DNA of 24,319 nucleotides from a virus: positions 1-24,319 of IMG/VR virus record IMGVR_UViG_3300021961_000616; one strand, given 5' to 3'. Numbering within the stretch: the first letter of the stretch is position 1; every line of letters begins with the position of its first letter. This document shows, piece after piece, positions 5,542 through 21,628 of the stretch. A program made the position numbers and the translations under genes. Below the pieces are notes generated by a model. The model worked only from the letters and a program-made list of their open reading frames with translations, did not search any database and was not told where the DNA came from.

Positions 5542-5834
5542 CAACGCTTCCCGTGCAGGATCTCGCTGACGCGACCGAGGTTTATGCCGTGGGCAGTCGC
5601 GATCTCTTGGTACGCTAGGTCGGGGAAGTCCGCGGCCATCTGGCGCACGGACGCACGGACGGCTGCCGTGATGCGGCGGCTGCTGGTAGGCGCACGCGTA
5701 TAGCTGCGGCGGCGTGTCTCTTCGGACAGTTTGTGGATCTTAGTCGCGATGTAAATCTGACGCCGGGCGAGCGTTTTGCTCTCATCGGTCAGCTCGGTAA
5801 TCAAGTCACGGATCTGTGGTATGGTAAGTTTCAT
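5541..5834 (-). CDS. helix-turn-helix protein, 97 aa
   Basis: The C terminus carries a probable helix-turn-helix: YQEIATAHGINLGRVSEIL followed by basic HGKR, at about residues 75-97. The N-terminal half is helical and charged, and a Ser/Thr/Arg-rich linker (RRRSYTRAPTSSRR) joins the two. It may be a transcription regulator or a DNA-binding replication accessory; the stop overlaps the DNA polymerase start by one base, so polymerase translation is likely coupled to it. The upstream gap contains two long inverted repeats, one of which buries part of its ribosome binding site (AGAGGAG), so expression may be controlled at the RNA level. Confidence 0.85.
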   Translation of the reverse strand: MKLTIPQIRDLITELTDESKTLARRQIYIATKIHKLSEETRRRSYTRAPTSSRRITAAVRASVRQMAADFPDLAYQEIATAHGINLGRVSEILHGKR

Positions 5835-5843
5835 GCTGATACT

Positions 5844-5924
5844 CCTCTATTCTGGTGAGCCGCGCGATCGTGTATCAGCAACGCAGGAGCAACCCGCACC
5901 ACGCGCGGCTCGCCAGAATAGAGG
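5844..5924 (-). repeat. 23-bp inverted repeat, RBS-covering hairpin
   Basis: Arms at 5844-5866 and 5902-5924 are 23 bases with a single mismatch (T opposite C; G:U or A:C in RNA), separated by 35 bases. On the minus strand the second arm ends in AGAGG of the Shine-Dalgarno AGAGGAG for the 97-aa gene, so the hairpin would hide it. The loop contains GTATCAGCAACGCAGGAG on the plus strand, that is, a copy of the leader box in the wrong orientation for the gene. Confidence 0.85.
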
Positions 5925-9339: not shown

Positions 9340-11361
9340 TTACTCATAAAAGATAATTTTTCCACCTTCCATGCGCAGCGGGCCGTCCTTCTCCTTGCTA
9401 AGTGCCTGAATTGCGCGGGTTACAGACTGCCTGCGCGTGTCCCGCTTGCCGTCCTCTGGTGGCTGCAATGCGGCCACGGCGCGGTCAATTAGCTCGATAG
9501 CGCTGACAATGCTGTCAGATCCGAACAGGGTCATAACCTCCAACACGTGATTTTCTACACGTCCGCGACGCTTCAGGCCGATGCGCTCCTCCTCGACCTT
9601 GACCGGCAATTCTGCGGGCACGGCAACGCAGCTCGTGATGATGTCGCCGTCATAGTCGATGCCGACCTCGACGACTTCAAGCCTGAAGGCCCAGCGGATG
9701 CCGTCCTCGCCGTCCTTCATCTTCTCGATGATGATCTCGCGTGTGCCGTCCTCGTGACGCACCACTTCGATCTGGACGTCGGCTGCGGCCTTCAGGCCCG
9801 ACCAGCCACGCACGCCCTTGCTGAGATCCTTGCCGGCGTGGGCGACGACAAGGTTCATGGCGCGCGTCGCCTCGTGCAGGAGCTTCAGGTTCGCCAGTGC
9901 GCGGCCCACGTCCTCGGATGTATTCTCATTTGCGCCGGGTGTCACCTGCGCGAACGTGTCGACTATGACCAAGTCCACGGGGCCGATGTTGTTAAGCTCG
10001 GCTATCACCTCGGAGACGTCGTCACTGTCAAGGAAGTTCGGCGCGGCCGTGATGACGTGCACGTCGATGCCCTGCAAGTTGAAGTCATGGTAGCGGGCGT
10101 ACGCCTCGCCGCGCTTGCCGATGCCCGCGCCGCCCTCTGCGGCGATGATCGCGACACGCCCGCGCGTCGTGCGCCGATCGCGCCACGCGATGCCGCGTGC
10201 GACCGAGAAGGCCAGATCCAGCGCCACGAACGTCTTGCCAGATCCCGACGCGCCGAAGAGCACGCCCAGCTCGCCCCTCGGCAGGACGCCCTTGATCAGC
10301 CAGTCCATCGGCGGTGCGAGGGACAGGTCGTATATCGGCACGGGGCCGAAGCGGCCTAAACTCTTTTTGGGCAGCTCAGCCATGATCGCCTCGGCCTTGG
10401 CGAGCACTTGTTCCCTGCTGGCTGCCTCACTGGGGCGGTAGCCTGCCTCCTTGGCCATCTTGATGACCGAGGCCATTGTTATGGACGCGCGGCCGGGTGT
10501 CGGCCCACGGAAGCTGCGCCACTGGTACTCCACGCCCTCCGAGCCGGGGTATGTGACGCCGTCAGACGACCACTCGTCCCAAAGGTACAGGCCGGTGTCA
10601 TCACCCTCCGTCTCGTGATGGATGGCCGTACCGATGCGGATCCACTCCTCGCGGCTGCAATCCGGGCTCAGGTGCCGCAGGATGTCCTCGATCTGCTCTA
10701 TGGAAAGGCCAAGCGGCCTCTCGCGACCGAGCATGAAGTCCTCACTGTCGATGGTCGTGCGGGACTTACCGAAGCGGCGCTGGCATGCGTCAACAACAGC
10801 CTGCGGCAGGGGCGCGATGCGGTCCTCGTATCCGAGGATGTCCACGTGATCGAGCAGCCAGCCGGTGAACGTCGTAAAGCCCGCAGAACTGAATGCCTCC
10901 ACTGCGAACTCAGGCCCCTCGTTGCGGGCCTTTCGGTTCTCAAGCAGGTTCGGAGGCCCGAAGAAGATGGCGTGTATGCCCTGACCGCTGGGGCTGAACT
11001 CTGCGTACGTGCTCTCGACCAGACTGAGGATGTCCGGACGCACGACGCCGTCCGTTACGCACGCGTCGAAGTCGAGCGTGACGACACCGCCGGCAAGCGT
11101 GTGCGCAAAGCCCACGCCGTCAAAGCCGCCCTTGATGGCAGCCTCGCGGGCGGCCGCAAAGGTTGTCAGCTTGGCCATGTCCTGCGGCGCGCCCTGCGTG
11201 CCATGCCGGCGCTCGCCGGTTGGGTAGTAGGGCACCTTGCGTGCCTTGGCCTCGCCGGGAAAGGGCTCGAGCCTCCAGCACAGCCAGTACGGCAGGTCGC
11301 GCAAGGGCGCTGGCGCTTTCATTTCGCGCAGGTGTGGTGTGATACGCTGGACGGCGGTCAT
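9340..11361 (-). CDS. primase-helicase: prim-pol-like domain plus RepA-type AAA ATPase
   Basis: 673 residues with three parts. (1) An N-terminal prim-pol-like domain: LPYWLCWR at 23-30, DFD at 97-99 (metal-binding type), and SPSGQGIH at 123-130. (2) A PriCT-2-like linker domain around 220-300 (LSPDCSREEWIRIGTAIHHE). (3) A RepA/DnaB-like hexameric helicase domain: Walker A GASGSGKT at 370-377, Walker B VIVDTF at 465-470, and HAGKDLSKGVRGWSG at 508-522. This organisation fits a protein that unwinds the origin or fork and lays primers. No separate primase or DnaB is visible, so it is probably the phage replisome core with the polymerase. GAGG lies before the ATG. Confidence 0.92.
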   Translation of the reverse strand: MTAVQRITPHLREMKAPAPLRDLPYWLCWRLEPFPGEAKARKVPYYPTGERRHGTQGAPQDMAKLTTFAAAREAAIKGGFDGVGFAHTLAGGVVTLDFDACVTDGVVRPDILSLVESTYAEFSPSGQGIHAIFFGPPNLLENRKARNEGPEFAVEAFSSAGFTTFTGWLLDHVDILGYEDRIAPLPQAVVDACQRRFGKSRTTIDSEDFMLGRERPLGLSIEQIEDILRHLSPDCSREEWIRIGTAIHHETEGDDTGLYLWDEWSSDGVTYPGSEGVEYQWRSFRGPTPGRASITMASVIKMAKEAGYRPSEAASREQVLAKAEAIMAELPKKSLGRFGPVPIYDLSLAPPMDWLIKGVLPRGELGVLFGASGSGKTFVALDLAFSVARGIAWRDRRTTRGRVAIIAAEGGAGIGKRGEAYARYHDFNLQGIDVHVITAAPNFLDSDDVSEVIAELNNIGPVDLVIVDTFAQVTPGANENTSEDVGRALANLKLLHEATRAMNLVVAHAGKDLSKGVRGWSGLKAAADVQIEVVRHEDGTREIIIEKMKDGEDGIRWAFRLEVVEVGIDYDGDIITSCVAVPAELPVKVEEERIGLKRRGRVENHVLEVMTLFGSDSIVSAIELIDRAVAALQPPEDGKRDTRRQSVTRAIQALSKEKDGPLRMEGGKIIFYE

Positions 11362-16056: not shown

Positions 16057-16356
16057 TTAGATGCGGTTGGCTGCGACGATGGCGCAGAGGATGGCGGGGT
16101 GCTTGTGGGTGCGGTAGAAGTCGCCGCAGTTGTATTCCCACTCGTCGTCGCACTCGAAGCGGTGGGCCGTGCCGAACAGTTCGCCATCGTAATAGAAGTC
16201 GACGGTGTGGAAATCGTACTTGGGGTCGTCGCCCTTGGCGGTGTTGAAGTTGCGCAGTTCAAAGTCATAGCCATTGAACGAGAACTTGTTGTCGCGGATG
16301 TTGATGGTGGCTTCTTCGCCGGACCAGTTGCTCTTGTTGAAAGTGATGAAAGTCAT
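16057..16356 (-). CDS. hypothetical protein, 99 aa, first minus-strand gene
   Basis: ATG 16356 is preceded by CGGAG and the leader box; the frame is open to 16389. Beta-rich and aromatic (EATINIRDNKFSFNGYDFEL, VDFYYDGELFGTAHRF), ending with a His/Cys helix (HKHPAILCAIVAANRI). It faces the divergent control region and is likely the first early transcript. First-transcribed phage genes often encode host-takeover proteins, but no family is recognised here. Confidence 0.78.
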   Translation of the reverse strand: MTFITFNKSNWSGEEATINIRDNKFSFNGYDFELRNFNTAKGDDPKYDFHTVDFYYDGELFGTAHRFECDDEWEYNCGDFYRTHKHPAILCAIVAANRI

Positions 16357-16364
16357 GATTTTTA

Positions 16365-16385
16365 CTCCGTTTCTTCGTTGCTGAT
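16365..16385 (-). promoter_or_regulatory. leader/RBS box with insertion
   Basis: The same ATCAGCAACGAAG start as the other leaders, but five extra bases separate it from the GGAG (ATCAGCAACGAAG then AAACGGAG). This makes the ribosome binding site distinct from the conserved box and shows that the ATCAGCAAC part is kept independently. Confidence 0.6.
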
Positions 16386-16403
16386 GCACTCTCCTAGAAT
16401 AGG

Positions 16404-16427: not shown

Positions 16428-16439
16428 ATGCATTTTATT

Positions 16440-16664
16440 TGCAACACGTGCATTTTTTTACTCGTGTTGCATGATGGAGGGTACTGCAACGCGGTGCAAC
16501 ACGAGTAATTTATTACCAGTACCGCAGAAATCCTATTGTCTTAGGACGTGCAACGCGGTGCAACACGGTGCACCATTTAGTTCGTGTTGCAGCTGCAACG
16601 CCACCTGCAACGCCGAGGAGGCCTCTTAATCTCCGATTAAGGCCCTCTCGCGTTGCATGTTGCA
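16440..16664. repeat. TGCAACRCG repeat array (iteron or operator cluster)
   Basis: Copies of TGCAACRCG or its complement lie at 16440-16448, 16463-16471 (reverse), 16485-16493, 16495-16503, 16549-16557, 16559-16567, 16583-16591 (reverse) and 16649-16657 (reverse). TGCAACGCC lies at 16594-16602 and 16606-16614, and a bare GTTGCA core at 16659-16664. The 19-base pair TGCAACGCGGTGCAACACG occurs twice exactly, 64 bases apart, with units 10 bases apart (one helical turn). GTTGCAGCTGCAAC at 16587-16600 is a perfect palindrome. Further degenerate CGTTGCG copies run to about 16685. Confidence 0.85.
16620..16644. other. imperfect hairpin GGCC(tc)TTAATC-TCC-GATTAAGGCC
   Basis: Ten base pairs with a two-base bulge and a three-base loop, within the control region just right of the main repeat array. 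There is no T-run on either side, so an intrinsic terminator is not supported. It could be an operator or a structural element. Confidence 0.5.
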
Positions 16665-16808
16665 CGCGTTGTGCGTTGCGTTGCGGTGTGGGAAAGTTGG
16701 CCCTTCTCGTGGTGCAAAATGTCGGCACCCCTTGCCAATGGGTTTCGCGGTGCGTATGTTGCGCGCATTGACTGGTAGCACTGTGTAACCGAACGGAGCA
16801 TGCAGAAT

Positions 16809-17255
16809 ATGGCCAAGCGCCAAACGAAACGGACCCCCGAGGTCGAGGAGCGTATCATCGAGGGGCTGACCGATGGCGTGCCCCTGCGCGTTCTGTGCAG
16901 GCAGGATGATATTCCAAGCTGGCGTACTGTGTATGACTGGATAAACGCAGACCCATCCTTTGCCTCACGCGTCGCATACGCGCGCGATTTGGGCTTCGAG
17001 GCCATCGCCGAGGACATCCTCGACATCGCCGACGACACGCCCGCCATCAGCGAGCACGTGCAACGCAGCAAGATGCGCATCGACACGCGCCTGAAGCTGC
17101 TCGCCTGCTGGAGCCCGAAGCGCTACGGCAACAAGCAGGACGTCAGCATCGGCAACAAGGAGGGCGAGACCCTCAAGGTTCAGAGCAACGCGGAGAATGC
17201 TGCACTCACGTTGCACCTCGCCGAGGTGCTGCGCGACACGGACGTGCCGACGTGA
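16809..17255 (+). CDS. terS: terminase small subunit (Sf6 gp1-like)
   Basis: ATG 16809 is preferred over ATG 16800 because GGAG is 10 bases before it and only 1 base before 16800. The 148 residues fit the Sf6-type small terminase family: an N-terminal helix-turn-helix (VPLRVLCRQDDIPSWRTVYD) and WINADPSFASRVAYARDLG, then acidic helices ending at RLKLLACWSPKRYGNK, a family hallmark. The small subunit recognises the packaging site and regulates the motor; this family usually belongs to headful-packaging phages. It opens the rightward block and overlaps the next gene by 4 bases (GTGA). Confidence 0.9.
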   Translation: MAKRQTKRTPEVEERIIEGLTDGVPLRVLCRQDDIPSWRTVYDWINADPSFASRVAYARDLGFEAIAEDILDIADDTPAISEHVQRSKMRIDTRLKLLACWSPKRYGNKQDVSIGNKEGETLKVQSNAENAALTLHLAEVLRDTDVPT

Positions 17256-19066: not shown

Positions 19067-21628
19067 ATGATCGAAGACGAAGAAATGCTCGAAGGCGAGA
19101 TGGTTGAGTTCGAAGGTGAGGACGTGAGCGACGTCGAGGACACCGAGGACGGTGGCGCTATCGTCACGCTCGAAGAGAACGGACCGGCCGCAGGCGAGAG
19201 CGAGTTCTACGACAACCTCGCAGAAACTATGCCCGAACCGGACCTAAAAGCTCTGGCGTCGAAGTTCCTCGAACTGATCAGCAAGGACAAAGAGGCGCGC
19301 AAGAAGCGCGACGAGCAGTACGAAGAGGGCATCCGCCGTACAGGTCTGGGCGACGACGCCCCCGGCGGCGCGCAGTTCAACGGCGCGTCGAAGGTCGTGC
19401 ACCCGATGATGACCGAGGCGTGCATCGACTTCGCGTCGCGCGCCATCAAGGAGCTTCTGCCCCCGCAAGGTCCAGCCAAGGATCTGATCGAGGGCGAAGT
19501 CACGATGAAGAAGATCCAGAAGGCGAAGCGCAAGACGTCGCTCATGAACTGGCAGCTCACGGTGCAGAGCCAAGAGTTCCGCTCGGAGCTTGAGCAACTG
19601 CTGACGCAGGTGCCACTGGGCGGCGCGCAGTACCTCAAGATGTCGTGGGACGAGGCGCGCAACCGCCCCGGCTTCCTCGCCGTCATGATCGACGACATGT
19701 ACCTGCCCTTCGCGGCGACCAACTTCTACACCGCGCAGCGCAAGACGCACGTGCAGTACCTGACGCAGCTCGACTACGAGCAGCGCGTCGAGAGCGGCAT
19801 GTACCGCGACGTCGACCTGACGCCTCCGGGCCTTGAGCCTGACCGCTCGGCCGCCGACATCGCCAACGACAAGATCGAGGGCCGCACCGACACCAGCTAC
19901 AACGAGGACGGACTGCGCACCGTGTTTGAGTGCCACGTCATCGCCGACGTTGAGGGCGACGGCAACGCGCCGTACATCATCACCATCGACAAGCCGTCGA
20001 GCAAGGTGCTCGCGATCTACCGCAACTGGGACGAAGAGGACGACAGCCGCGAGCCGCTTGACTGGTTCGTTGAGTTCCCGTTCATCCCATGGCGCGGCGC
20101 GTACCCAATCGGCCTGCCGCACATGATCGGCGGCCTATCCGCTGCCGCGACCGGCGCGCTGCGCGCACTGATGGACAGCGCGCACATCCAGAACGTGCCG
20201 ACGATGCTCAAGCTGAAGGGCGGCACACGCGGCGGCCAGTCGCTGAACATCCAGCCGACGCAGGTCGAAGAGATCGAGGGCGGCCTCAACGTGGACGACG
20301 TCCGCAAGCTGGCCATGCCGATCCCGTTCAACCCACCATCGCCGACCCTGTTCCAGTTGCTCGGCTTCGTGGTCGACGCAGGCAAGGGCGTGGTCCGCAC
20401 GTCGATGGACAATCTGGCCGACCAGAACCCGAACGCACCAGTCGGCACGACGCTCGCCCTGATCCAAGAGGGCATGACCGTGTTCTCGTCAATCCACGCG
20501 CGTCTGCACAGCGCAATGGCCCGCACGCTGCGCATCCTGCACCGCCTCAACGCGATGTATCTGGACGACGCGGACGTGAAGCACGAGGTCGGCGAAGTGC
20601 TGGCCACCCGCGCAGACTTCGAAGGTCCGATGGACGTCGTGCCTGTGTCCGACCCGTCGATCTTCAGCGAGGCACAACGCTTTGCGCAGGTGCAGGCCGT
20701 GTCGCAACGCGCCGCTGCGCTGCCGCAACTGTACAACCAGCGTAAGGTCGAGGAGCGTCTGCTTGAGACGCTGCGCGTGCCGAACCCGAAGGAGCTGCTC
20801 AACCCGGCGCTGGAGCCGAAGCAGCAGAACGCGGTGAACGAGAACGTCGCGGCCACGATGGGCCGACCGATTGTCGCCTTCCCCGAGCAGGACCACATCG
20901 CCCACCTCAAGACGCACCTTGCGTACATGACGAACCCGGCGCTCGGCGCAAGCCAACTGATCGCGCCGTCGTACCTGCCGGTGATACTGGGCCACATCAA
21001 GGAACACCTTGCGCTGTGGTACGCGTCGACCGTGCTTGAGCTGGCCGAGGACACGTCCGGCATCGACATCTCCGAGGACATGAAGAACCTAAAGGACGAC
21101 GAGGCACGCCGTGCATTCGACCGCATGCTGGCCGAGGCATCGCAGACTGTGGTCTCCGACGCGGCCGAGGTGTTCGCATCGCTGCCGCCTGTCATTGCGC
21201 AGGCCATGCAGATGATGCAGCAGTTCGCGCCGCAGGTTCCACCAGACCCACGCGTTGCGCTCGAGGGCCAGAAGCTACAGGCGCAGGCACAGCGCGATCA
21301 GGCGCAGATGCAGCTCGACGGCCAGAAGATGCAGATGCAGATGCAGAAGGACCAGACGGCCATGCAGATCGAGGGCCAGAAGATGCAGGCCGACGCGATG
21401 CAGAGCCAAGCCGAGATGCAGCTTCAGGCGCAGAAGCTCCAGATCGAGCAGCAGCTTGAGCAGATGAAGCAGGACCGCGAGGACGCCCGCACATCGGCAG
21501 AGCTGAACGCCCGCATGACTATGAACCAGCAAGACAACCAGACGGCCATGCAGCTTGCGCAGGCCGAGATCATGTCTGGCGAACGCATCGCGGTGTCAAC
21601 AGGCACCGGGATAAACCCGAACCCGTAA
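19067..21628 (+). CDS. portal protein, large form with Gln/Met-rich C-terminal helix repeats
   Basis: Identified by position directly after the large terminase and by sequence: an acidic N terminus, then FLELISKDKEARKKRDEQYE, FNGASKVVHPMMTEACIDFA, IKELLPPQGPAKDLI and a long alpha/beta core as in podovirus-type portals. At 853 residues it is larger than many portals; the extra length is the acidic N-terminal about 60 residues and a C-terminal region from about 725 with four 18-residue Gln/Met repeats (732-803). A long C-terminal helical barrel exists in the P22 portal and may be matched here. Twelve copies would form the DNA entry vertex. AGGA precedes the ATG. Confidence 0.9.
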   Translation: MIEDEEMLEGEMVEFEGEDVSDVEDTEDGGAIVTLEENGPAAGESEFYDNLAETMPEPDLKALASKFLELISKDKEARKKRDEQYEEGIRRTGLGDDAPGGAQFNGASKVVHPMMTEACIDFASRAIKELLPPQGPAKDLIEGEVTMKKIQKAKRKTSLMNWQLTVQSQEFRSELEQLLTQVPLGGAQYLKMSWDEARNRPGFLAVMIDDMYLPFAATNFYTAQRKTHVQYLTQLDYEQRVESGMYRDVDLTPPGLEPDRSAADIANDKIEGRTDTSYNEDGLRTVFECHVIADVEGDGNAPYIITIDKPSSKVLAIYRNWDEEDDSREPLDWFVEFPFIPWRGAYPIGLPHMIGGLSAAATGALRALMDSAHIQNVPTMLKLKGGTRGGQSLNIQPTQVEEIEGGLNVDDVRKLAMPIPFNPPSPTLFQLLGFVVDAGKGVVRTSMDNLADQNPNAPVGTTLALIQEGMTVFSSIHARLHSAMARTLRILHRLNAMYLDDADVKHEVGEVLATRADFEGPMDVVPVSDPSIFSEAQRFAQVQAVSQRAAALPQLYNQRKVEERLLETLRVPNPKELLNPALEPKQQNAVNENVAATMGRPIVAFPEQDHIAHLKTHLAYMTNPALGASQLIAPSYLPVILGHIKEHLALWYASTVLELAEDTSGIDISEDMKNLKDDEARRAFDRMLAEASQTVVSDAAEVFASLPPVIAQAMQMMQQFAPQVPPDPRVALEGQKLQAQAQRDQAQMQLDGQKMQMQMQKDQTAMQIEGQKMQADAMQSQAEMQLQAQKLQIEQQLEQMKQDREDARTSAELNARMTMNQQDNQTAMQLAQAEIMSGERIAVSTGTGINPNP
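21260..21475 (+). repeat. four 54-base in-frame repeats in the portal gene
   Basis: The units start at 21260, 21314, 21368 and 21422. Translated, they read LEGQKLQAQAQRDQAQMQ, LDGQKMQMQMQKDQTAMQ, IEGQKMQADAMQSQAEMQ and LQAQKLQIEQQLEQMKQD. The 18-residue period equals five alpha-helix turns. The last copy is the most degenerate. Confidence 0.85.

Follow-up and report, generated by a model that had tools for sequence, protein, structure and literature searches.

The repeat array and its hairpin

The DNA analyzed here (the window) is an IMG/VR virus fragment of 24,319 b whose genes form two divergent blocks. The leftward early block includes a gene for a primase-helicase and, as judged by reading of the translations, probably also encodes a DNA polymerase A, a SNF2-type helicase and a nuclease. 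Rightward, the genes begin with the terminase subunits, followed by the portal gene. The junction of these blocks, which the original prediction had taken for a divergent control region, is indeed bordered on the left by the first leftward early gene (110 aa; 16057 to 16389, minus strand) and on the right by the gene for the small terminase subunit (TerS; 16800 to 17255, plus strand). Between them lies an array of TGCAAC(RCG) units in both orientations (16440 to 16664), proposed here as an origin with putative initiator sites. In the window and its group of near relatives, the array is found ~5 kb upstream of the primase-helicase gene.

A scan of all 24,319 b revealed eight exact copies of TGCAACRCG (five on the plus and three on the minus strand), all within 16440 to 16657 and none elsewhere, compared to a mean of 1.18 and a maximum of 5 in 100 dinucleotide shuffles of the window. 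With one mismatch allowed, 38 copies were counted (22.2 expected). The cluster contains 11 TGCAAC cores, the extras beyond the exact units being located at 16594, 16606 and 16659; the "eight to eleven" copies that had been predicted therefore correspond to exact 9-mers and to cores, respectively. Single copies of TGCAACACG are present at 16440 to 16448 (plus), 16463 to 16471 (minus) and 16583 to 16591 (minus). The 19-base double unit TGCAACGCGGTGCAACACG, with its units 10 b apart, recurs exactly on the plus strand at 16485 to 16503 and 16549 to 16567, and a perfect 14-base palindrome made of two cores (GTTGCAGCTGCAAC) occupies 16586 to 16599, both as originally described. The palindrome also brought a protelomerase-type site to mind, but its odd 3-nt center spoke against this idea, which was abandoned. 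A perfect inverted pair of 14 b (TTACTCGTGTTGCA/TGCAACACGAGTAA; 16458 to 16471 and 16495 to 16508) had been overlooked in the first reading. The AT-rich tract noted earlier alongside the repeats turned out to be two tracts, both possible unwinding elements: one at ~16429 to 16462 (tgcattttatt/tgcattttttta), which is kept in near relatives, and one at about 16501 to 16532, or ~16501 to 16515 when delimited more narrowly (cgagtaatttattaccagtaccgcagaaatcc), which is conserved between them. The array displays the multiple short repeats, the compact region and the AT-rich stretch expected of an iteron origin.

The right end of the array forms a 52-b hairpin (16606 to 16657) that had likewise escaped the first reading. 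It comprises a 22-pair stem with the base TGCAACGC/GCGTTGCA and a 3-nt loop, and two oppositely oriented units form its basal arms. Two TGCAAC cores spaced 12 b apart (16594 to 16611, plus) lie to the left of and at the hairpin base, and the units on the right side are TGCAACGCG (16649 to 16657) and TGCAAC (16659 to 16664), together 16649 to 16664 on the minus strand. The DNA fold of this region was far better than that of shuffled sequences (z = -5.6). Twelve distinct hairpins aligned without gaps with 91.3% of the stem paired, compared to at most 53% in slid controls. Nine pairs were altered on both sides, amounting to 30 such cells versus 10.4 in shuffles. As read from these substitutions, the hairpin is maintained by compensatory changes, and it may serve priming as a single-strand initiation site. 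An Rfam search yielded no match.

Array conservation and unit classes

Relatives were gathered via the terminase, the small terminase subunit and scans for the exact 19-mer, which resulted in more than 140 loci. More than 20 IMG/VR contigs with a terminase 72 to 99% identical to that of the window carried an array of 8 to 15 TGCAAC cores at the same place, and the comparison with related phages that had been suggested as a check thus bore out the conservation of both unit and layout. The long relatives possess one array per genome, which contained 8 of 9 exact 9-mers in G006 and 6 of 6 in G001. In L210 (3300 to 3900), the array region is apparently split, a small gene having been inserted between two copies or near-copies of TGCAACGCACCGTTGCAAGCACTATTTT. 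Within the portal gene, a segment (window 19139 to 21025) showed 76.5% DNA identity to the cultured Caulobacter phages RW, KcrB, RLK and GB2A, which exceeds the identity of the other window genes. No array was found in these four phages, whose terminal repeats of 2,940 b include terS (KcrB record).

Other relatives keep the layout of the array and exchange its unit in concert, in most or all copies. The classes include TGCAAC, TGCACC (L094, L099 and L061), TGCAGC (L042, L073 and L108), TGTCAC (L044 and L228) and TGAAGC; in L042, the array skeleton of the window is retained with TGCAGC in place of TGCAAC. From their sequences, these concerted swaps resemble the specificity classes expected of a binding protein and its target site. 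Candidates for the binder were examined in three phages: that of the window, G006, which has the same array and 19-mer, and G010, which has a TGCACC array. TerS was 41% identical to the window protein in G006 and 89% in G010, the YdaS-like protein 46% and 99%, and a winged-helix protein of 193 aa 29% and 84%. All three are closer to G010 than to G006 and therefore do not follow the unit, and they were rejected as unit binders; for the YdaS-like and the 193-aa winged-helix proteins, this contradicts their earlier nomination. A 121-aa HTH-like protein, absent from G010 and 77% identical in G006, was discarded as well, since it is missing in the TGCAAC-bearing L070.

The primase-helicase of G010 is 97% identical to that of the window, yet its units are TGCACC, and G010 carries a separate winged-helix gene between the array and terS. 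Genes at this position with the same C-terminal winged-helix motif as the primase-helicase (GRDTRRQ...) were also observed in L094, L095, L099, L100, L017, L061, L075 and others, exclusively with TGCACC-type or degenerate arrays and with none of the strong TGCAAC arrays. L004, which has a TGCAAC array, contains a similar gene without the winged-helix domain. Judging by sequence, the extra protein of G010 and of the other TGCACC or degenerate arrays may bind there, and it is a possible origin-binding competitor or regulator.

The primase-helicase, distant arrays and unit covariation

The primase-helicase (673 aa; 9340 to 11361, minus strand) is the proposed initiator. It consists of an NrS-1-type prim-pol, a PriCT_2 domain, an RSF1010 RepA-type helicase and a C-terminal winged helix. 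Foldseek matched the N-terminal part to the NrS-1 prim-pol, an AEP enzyme, and the middle to the RSF1010 RepA helicase; the helicase part is RepA-like AAA_25. In the AlphaFold model, the winged helix spans residues 601 to 671 (9349 to 9561, minus strand), with the recognition helix at residues 643 to 655 followed by the wing, and it carries a conserved RD-x-R(R/K)Q motif. Going by these matches and the model, a single chain seems to combine a primer-making domain, a hexameric helicase and an origin-recognizing domain.

We retrieved primase-helicase loci with 10-kb flanks from viral and genome contigs. In distant relatives, an inverted 6-mer array mostly begins no more than ~70 b after the stop codon of the RepA-type (primase-)helicase gene, and when inverted units were counted along 45 distant loci, the 300 b following the stop codon strictly exceeded every other stretch of the locus in 33. 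The units of these loci include TGCAAC, TGCACC, TGAAGC, TGAAGG, GTAGGG, TGTTCG and TCAACC. Cultured phages with such an array are Roseobacter phage CRP-811, Rhizobium phage 16-3, Alteromonas phage XX1924, Idiomarinaceae phage 1N2-2 and Curvibacter phage PCA1. No array was found for Caulobacter phage KcrB (48% identical protein), nor directly after the RepA-like genes of Mycobacterium phages Baka and BirdsNest, Vibrio phage 1.210.O and ctyzp037. A search for perfect stems ranked the hairpin first within its locus in only 19 of 41 distant cases, and hairpin strength alone is therefore no marker. The hairpins of several distant phages (L322, L274, L281, L292, L307 and L323) often have a CCCTTTAGGG or CCCTATAGGG center despite their different units, which suggests, from sequence comparison, a conserved function of the loop, e.g., in priming. 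Two further phages that encode the primase-helicase, L225 (300 to 1100) and L231 (760 to 1500), display a GGACA/TGTCC-repeat hairpin adjoining a second RepA-like ATPase with a C-terminal DNA-binding-like end of its own. L231 additionally contains ~20 units of GGCTACGGC/GGCAACGGC (5650 to 5900), apparently coding for a Gly-Tyr/Asn-rich protein.

The association between unit and protein was resolved to single residues by a column scan over 40 representatives with TGCA[A/C/G]C units and 644 primase-helicase columns. Residue 642 (threonine in the window) ranked 1st and residue 646 (serine in the window) ranked 4th of 644 columns for unit class. Both tracked the fifth base of the unit, and model and scan together place them in the recognition helix with its N-cap (residues 642 to 655; 9397 to 9438, minus strand). 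Among the 40 representatives, I642 occurred only with TGCAGC (10/10) and H646 only with TGCACC (6/6); L233 and L259, which combine TGCAGC units with T642, break the I642 rule. Independent pairs were scored on a protein tree built without the winged helix, and ~5/5 supported H646/TGCACC and ~2/2 supported I642/TGCAGC with none opposed, neither test being significant alone (p of 0.06 and 0.5). A partial Mantel test over 51 loci of all unit classes, controlled for the rest of the protein, gave a correlation of 0.315 (p = 0.0002) between unit and residues 641 to 650, with the qualifications that shared ancestry is not fully removed by such a test and that some loci are possibly misassigned because arrays were assigned by an automatic choice of whichever inverted 6-mer cluster was strongest. 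For the remaining helices of the winged-helix domain, the correlation was 0.093 (p = 0.058). When windows of ten residues were slid along the 673-aa protein, the top 5 of 325 started at residues 634 to 642, spanning 634 to 651. The strongest result of the analysis is that the unit sequence appears to track the start of the recognition helix beyond overall relatedness.

A proposed origin, its rivals and known systems

The original prediction had left the choice between an iteron origin for the prim-pol/RepA-type helicase and an operator cluster. The conserved unit, the arrays after distant primase-helicase genes and the covariation with the recognition helix favor the former. We consider it probable that the array is where replication starts and that the phage's own primase-helicase binds it via the C-terminal winged helix, with the hairpin possibly used for priming. 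The predicted course from binding through melting, helicase loading and priming to initiation would be as follows. Copies of the 673-aa protein would bind TGCAAC units of both orientations through the winged helix, whose recognition helix (residues 643 to 655) would read the unit. Cooperative loading on the 10-b-phased and inverted units would then melt the adjacent AT tract, where the RepA-type hexameric helicase would be loaded. The unit-flanked hairpin would perhaps be exposed as a single strand and could there receive the first primer from the prim-pol domain. The cumulative GC skew, proposed earlier as a check, was lowest not at the array but ~3 to 5 kb away, in the early genes, both for the window and for long relatives; the skew is confounded by gene direction.

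Several other explanations were weighed against this origin. A cooperative operator cluster, in which a phage regulator on the units controls leftward early and rightward packaging transcription, would fit the place of the array at the divergent junction of the window group, the several small HTH proteins encoded nearby and a weak sigma-70-like site in the flank. However, distant arrays directly follow the primase-helicase gene and precede a same-strand gene, and the array is therefore not tied to divergent promoters; moreover, the YdaS-like, 193-aa winged-helix and 121-aa proteins are independent of unit class, and the unit tracks the primase-helicase instead. We regard a pure operator as unlikely, although the array may act in transcription control as well, e.g., as an origin that represses transcription. 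It is very unlikely that the units are read by another binder, whether supplied by the host or encoded by the separate winged-helix gene of TGCACC-type phages, and that the primase-helicase merely tracks it. The nearly identical primase-helicases of G010 and the window with their different units speak for such a binder, as does the restriction of the separate winged-helix gene to TGCACC and degenerate arrays. Against it, TGCAAC phages lack this gene, and the association signal is confined to the recognition-helix start of the primase-helicase.

With TerS encoded by the next gene in the window and most near relatives, the repeats could also form a packaging site (pac/cos) bound by TerS, with the hairpin as the cut site. 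TerS does not track the repeat class, however, being only 41% identical in G006 despite the shared array and 19-mer and 89% identical in G010 with its other units, and in CRP-811 and similar cultured phages the array lies by the helicase gene with no terminase gene beside it; a packaging function is accordingly highly improbable. The strong hairpin with its 3-nt loop could point to an intrinsic terminator or an N4-like hairpin promoter, with the repeats as bystanders. Both were rejected. No T run follows the hairpin, and although the minus-strand loop is GNA-like in many relatives, no open reading frame for a giant virion RNA polymerase was found in long relatives (the largest has 2,079 aa). 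There was also no Rfam match, and neither idea would explain why unit and helix covary, which makes this the most far-fetched of the explanations.

Extending the origin interpretation beyond the window group, we think it somewhat probable that the arrays represent an undescribed, large family of phage origins, each specified by the phage's own initiator. In proteobacterial phages, RepA-type (SF4) primase-helicases, and helicases related to them, would each recognize a 6-bp unit of their own, in most cases located shortly after the gene, via a short recognition-helix code (642 and 646 for base 5 of TGCANC; 645 and others with wider changes, e.g., TGAAGC), and orthogonal initiator/origin pairs would be predictable from sequence. 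A search of literature accessible without subscription returned no description of such arrays for RepA-type phage proteins. To our knowledge, few uncultured phages have a known origin. If the proposal is true, many origins could be located from sequence alone, by looking for a RepA-type (primase-)helicase and the inverted short-unit array that adjoins it or is paired with it. Nature would also supply initiator/origin pairs in which a single base and one or two residues are exchanged, and these could serve studies of origin recognition, the replicon compatibility of coinfecting phages and orthogonal replicons.

Individual elements of the proposed origin have counterparts in known replicons. The RSF1010 oriV combines iterons, a RepA-type hexameric helicase, an AEP-type primase and the priming hairpins ssiA/ssiB, and it employs three separate proteins, RepC, RepA and RepB', of which RepC reads the iterons (PMC4234260). 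The window group shares the iterons, the helicase and primase types and, as a candidate single-strand initiation site, a conserved covarying hairpin, whereas all functions would reside in one chain. No RepC-like iteron binder was recognized among ten window proteins scanned, with small proteins of no known family left over. Plasmid pRN1 (ORF904) and Bordetella phage BIP-1 possess an AEP prim-pol, an SF3 helicase and a C-terminal winged helix, together with a stem-loop 3' of the gene that is essential in pRN1; no origin repeat unit was recognized and no specific binding was detected (PMC4234260). The protein described here resembles them in its prim-pol, helicase, C-terminal winged helix and stem-loop, but its helicase is RepA-type and a repeat unit is present.

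The helicase of the phage P4 alpha protein belongs to SF3. In alpha, a single polypeptide carries the primase, the helicase and a winged helix for binding to the origin repeats (ori/crr), and the primase is TOPRIM-type (PMC4234260). The same three kinds of domain are predicted here in one chain from sequence and model, but with an NrS-1-like AEP prim-pol at the N terminus and with different repeats. In Staphylococcus, the C-terminal domain of SaPI Rep recognizes short iterons directly downstream of its own gene, and that of SCCmec Cch2, which appears to work like SaPI Rep, binds a putative origin whose direct repeats are needed for binding; these helicases belong to DUF927/D5-type families, and the primase is usually separate (PMC7581432). 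An initiator helicase with C-terminal recognition of multiple short repeats, as suggested for the arrays reported here, would be common to both. In contrast to SaPI/SCCmec, an AEP prim-pol is fused to an RSF1010 RepA-like AAA_25 helicase rather than a DUF927/D5-type one, and a unit-flanked hairpin is present. The SaPI arrangement of the origin directly downstream of the gene is found in the 33 of 45 distant loci and not in the window group. By analogy, the best reading is that these arrays would act like SaPI Rep/ori and P4 alpha, built from different enzyme modules.
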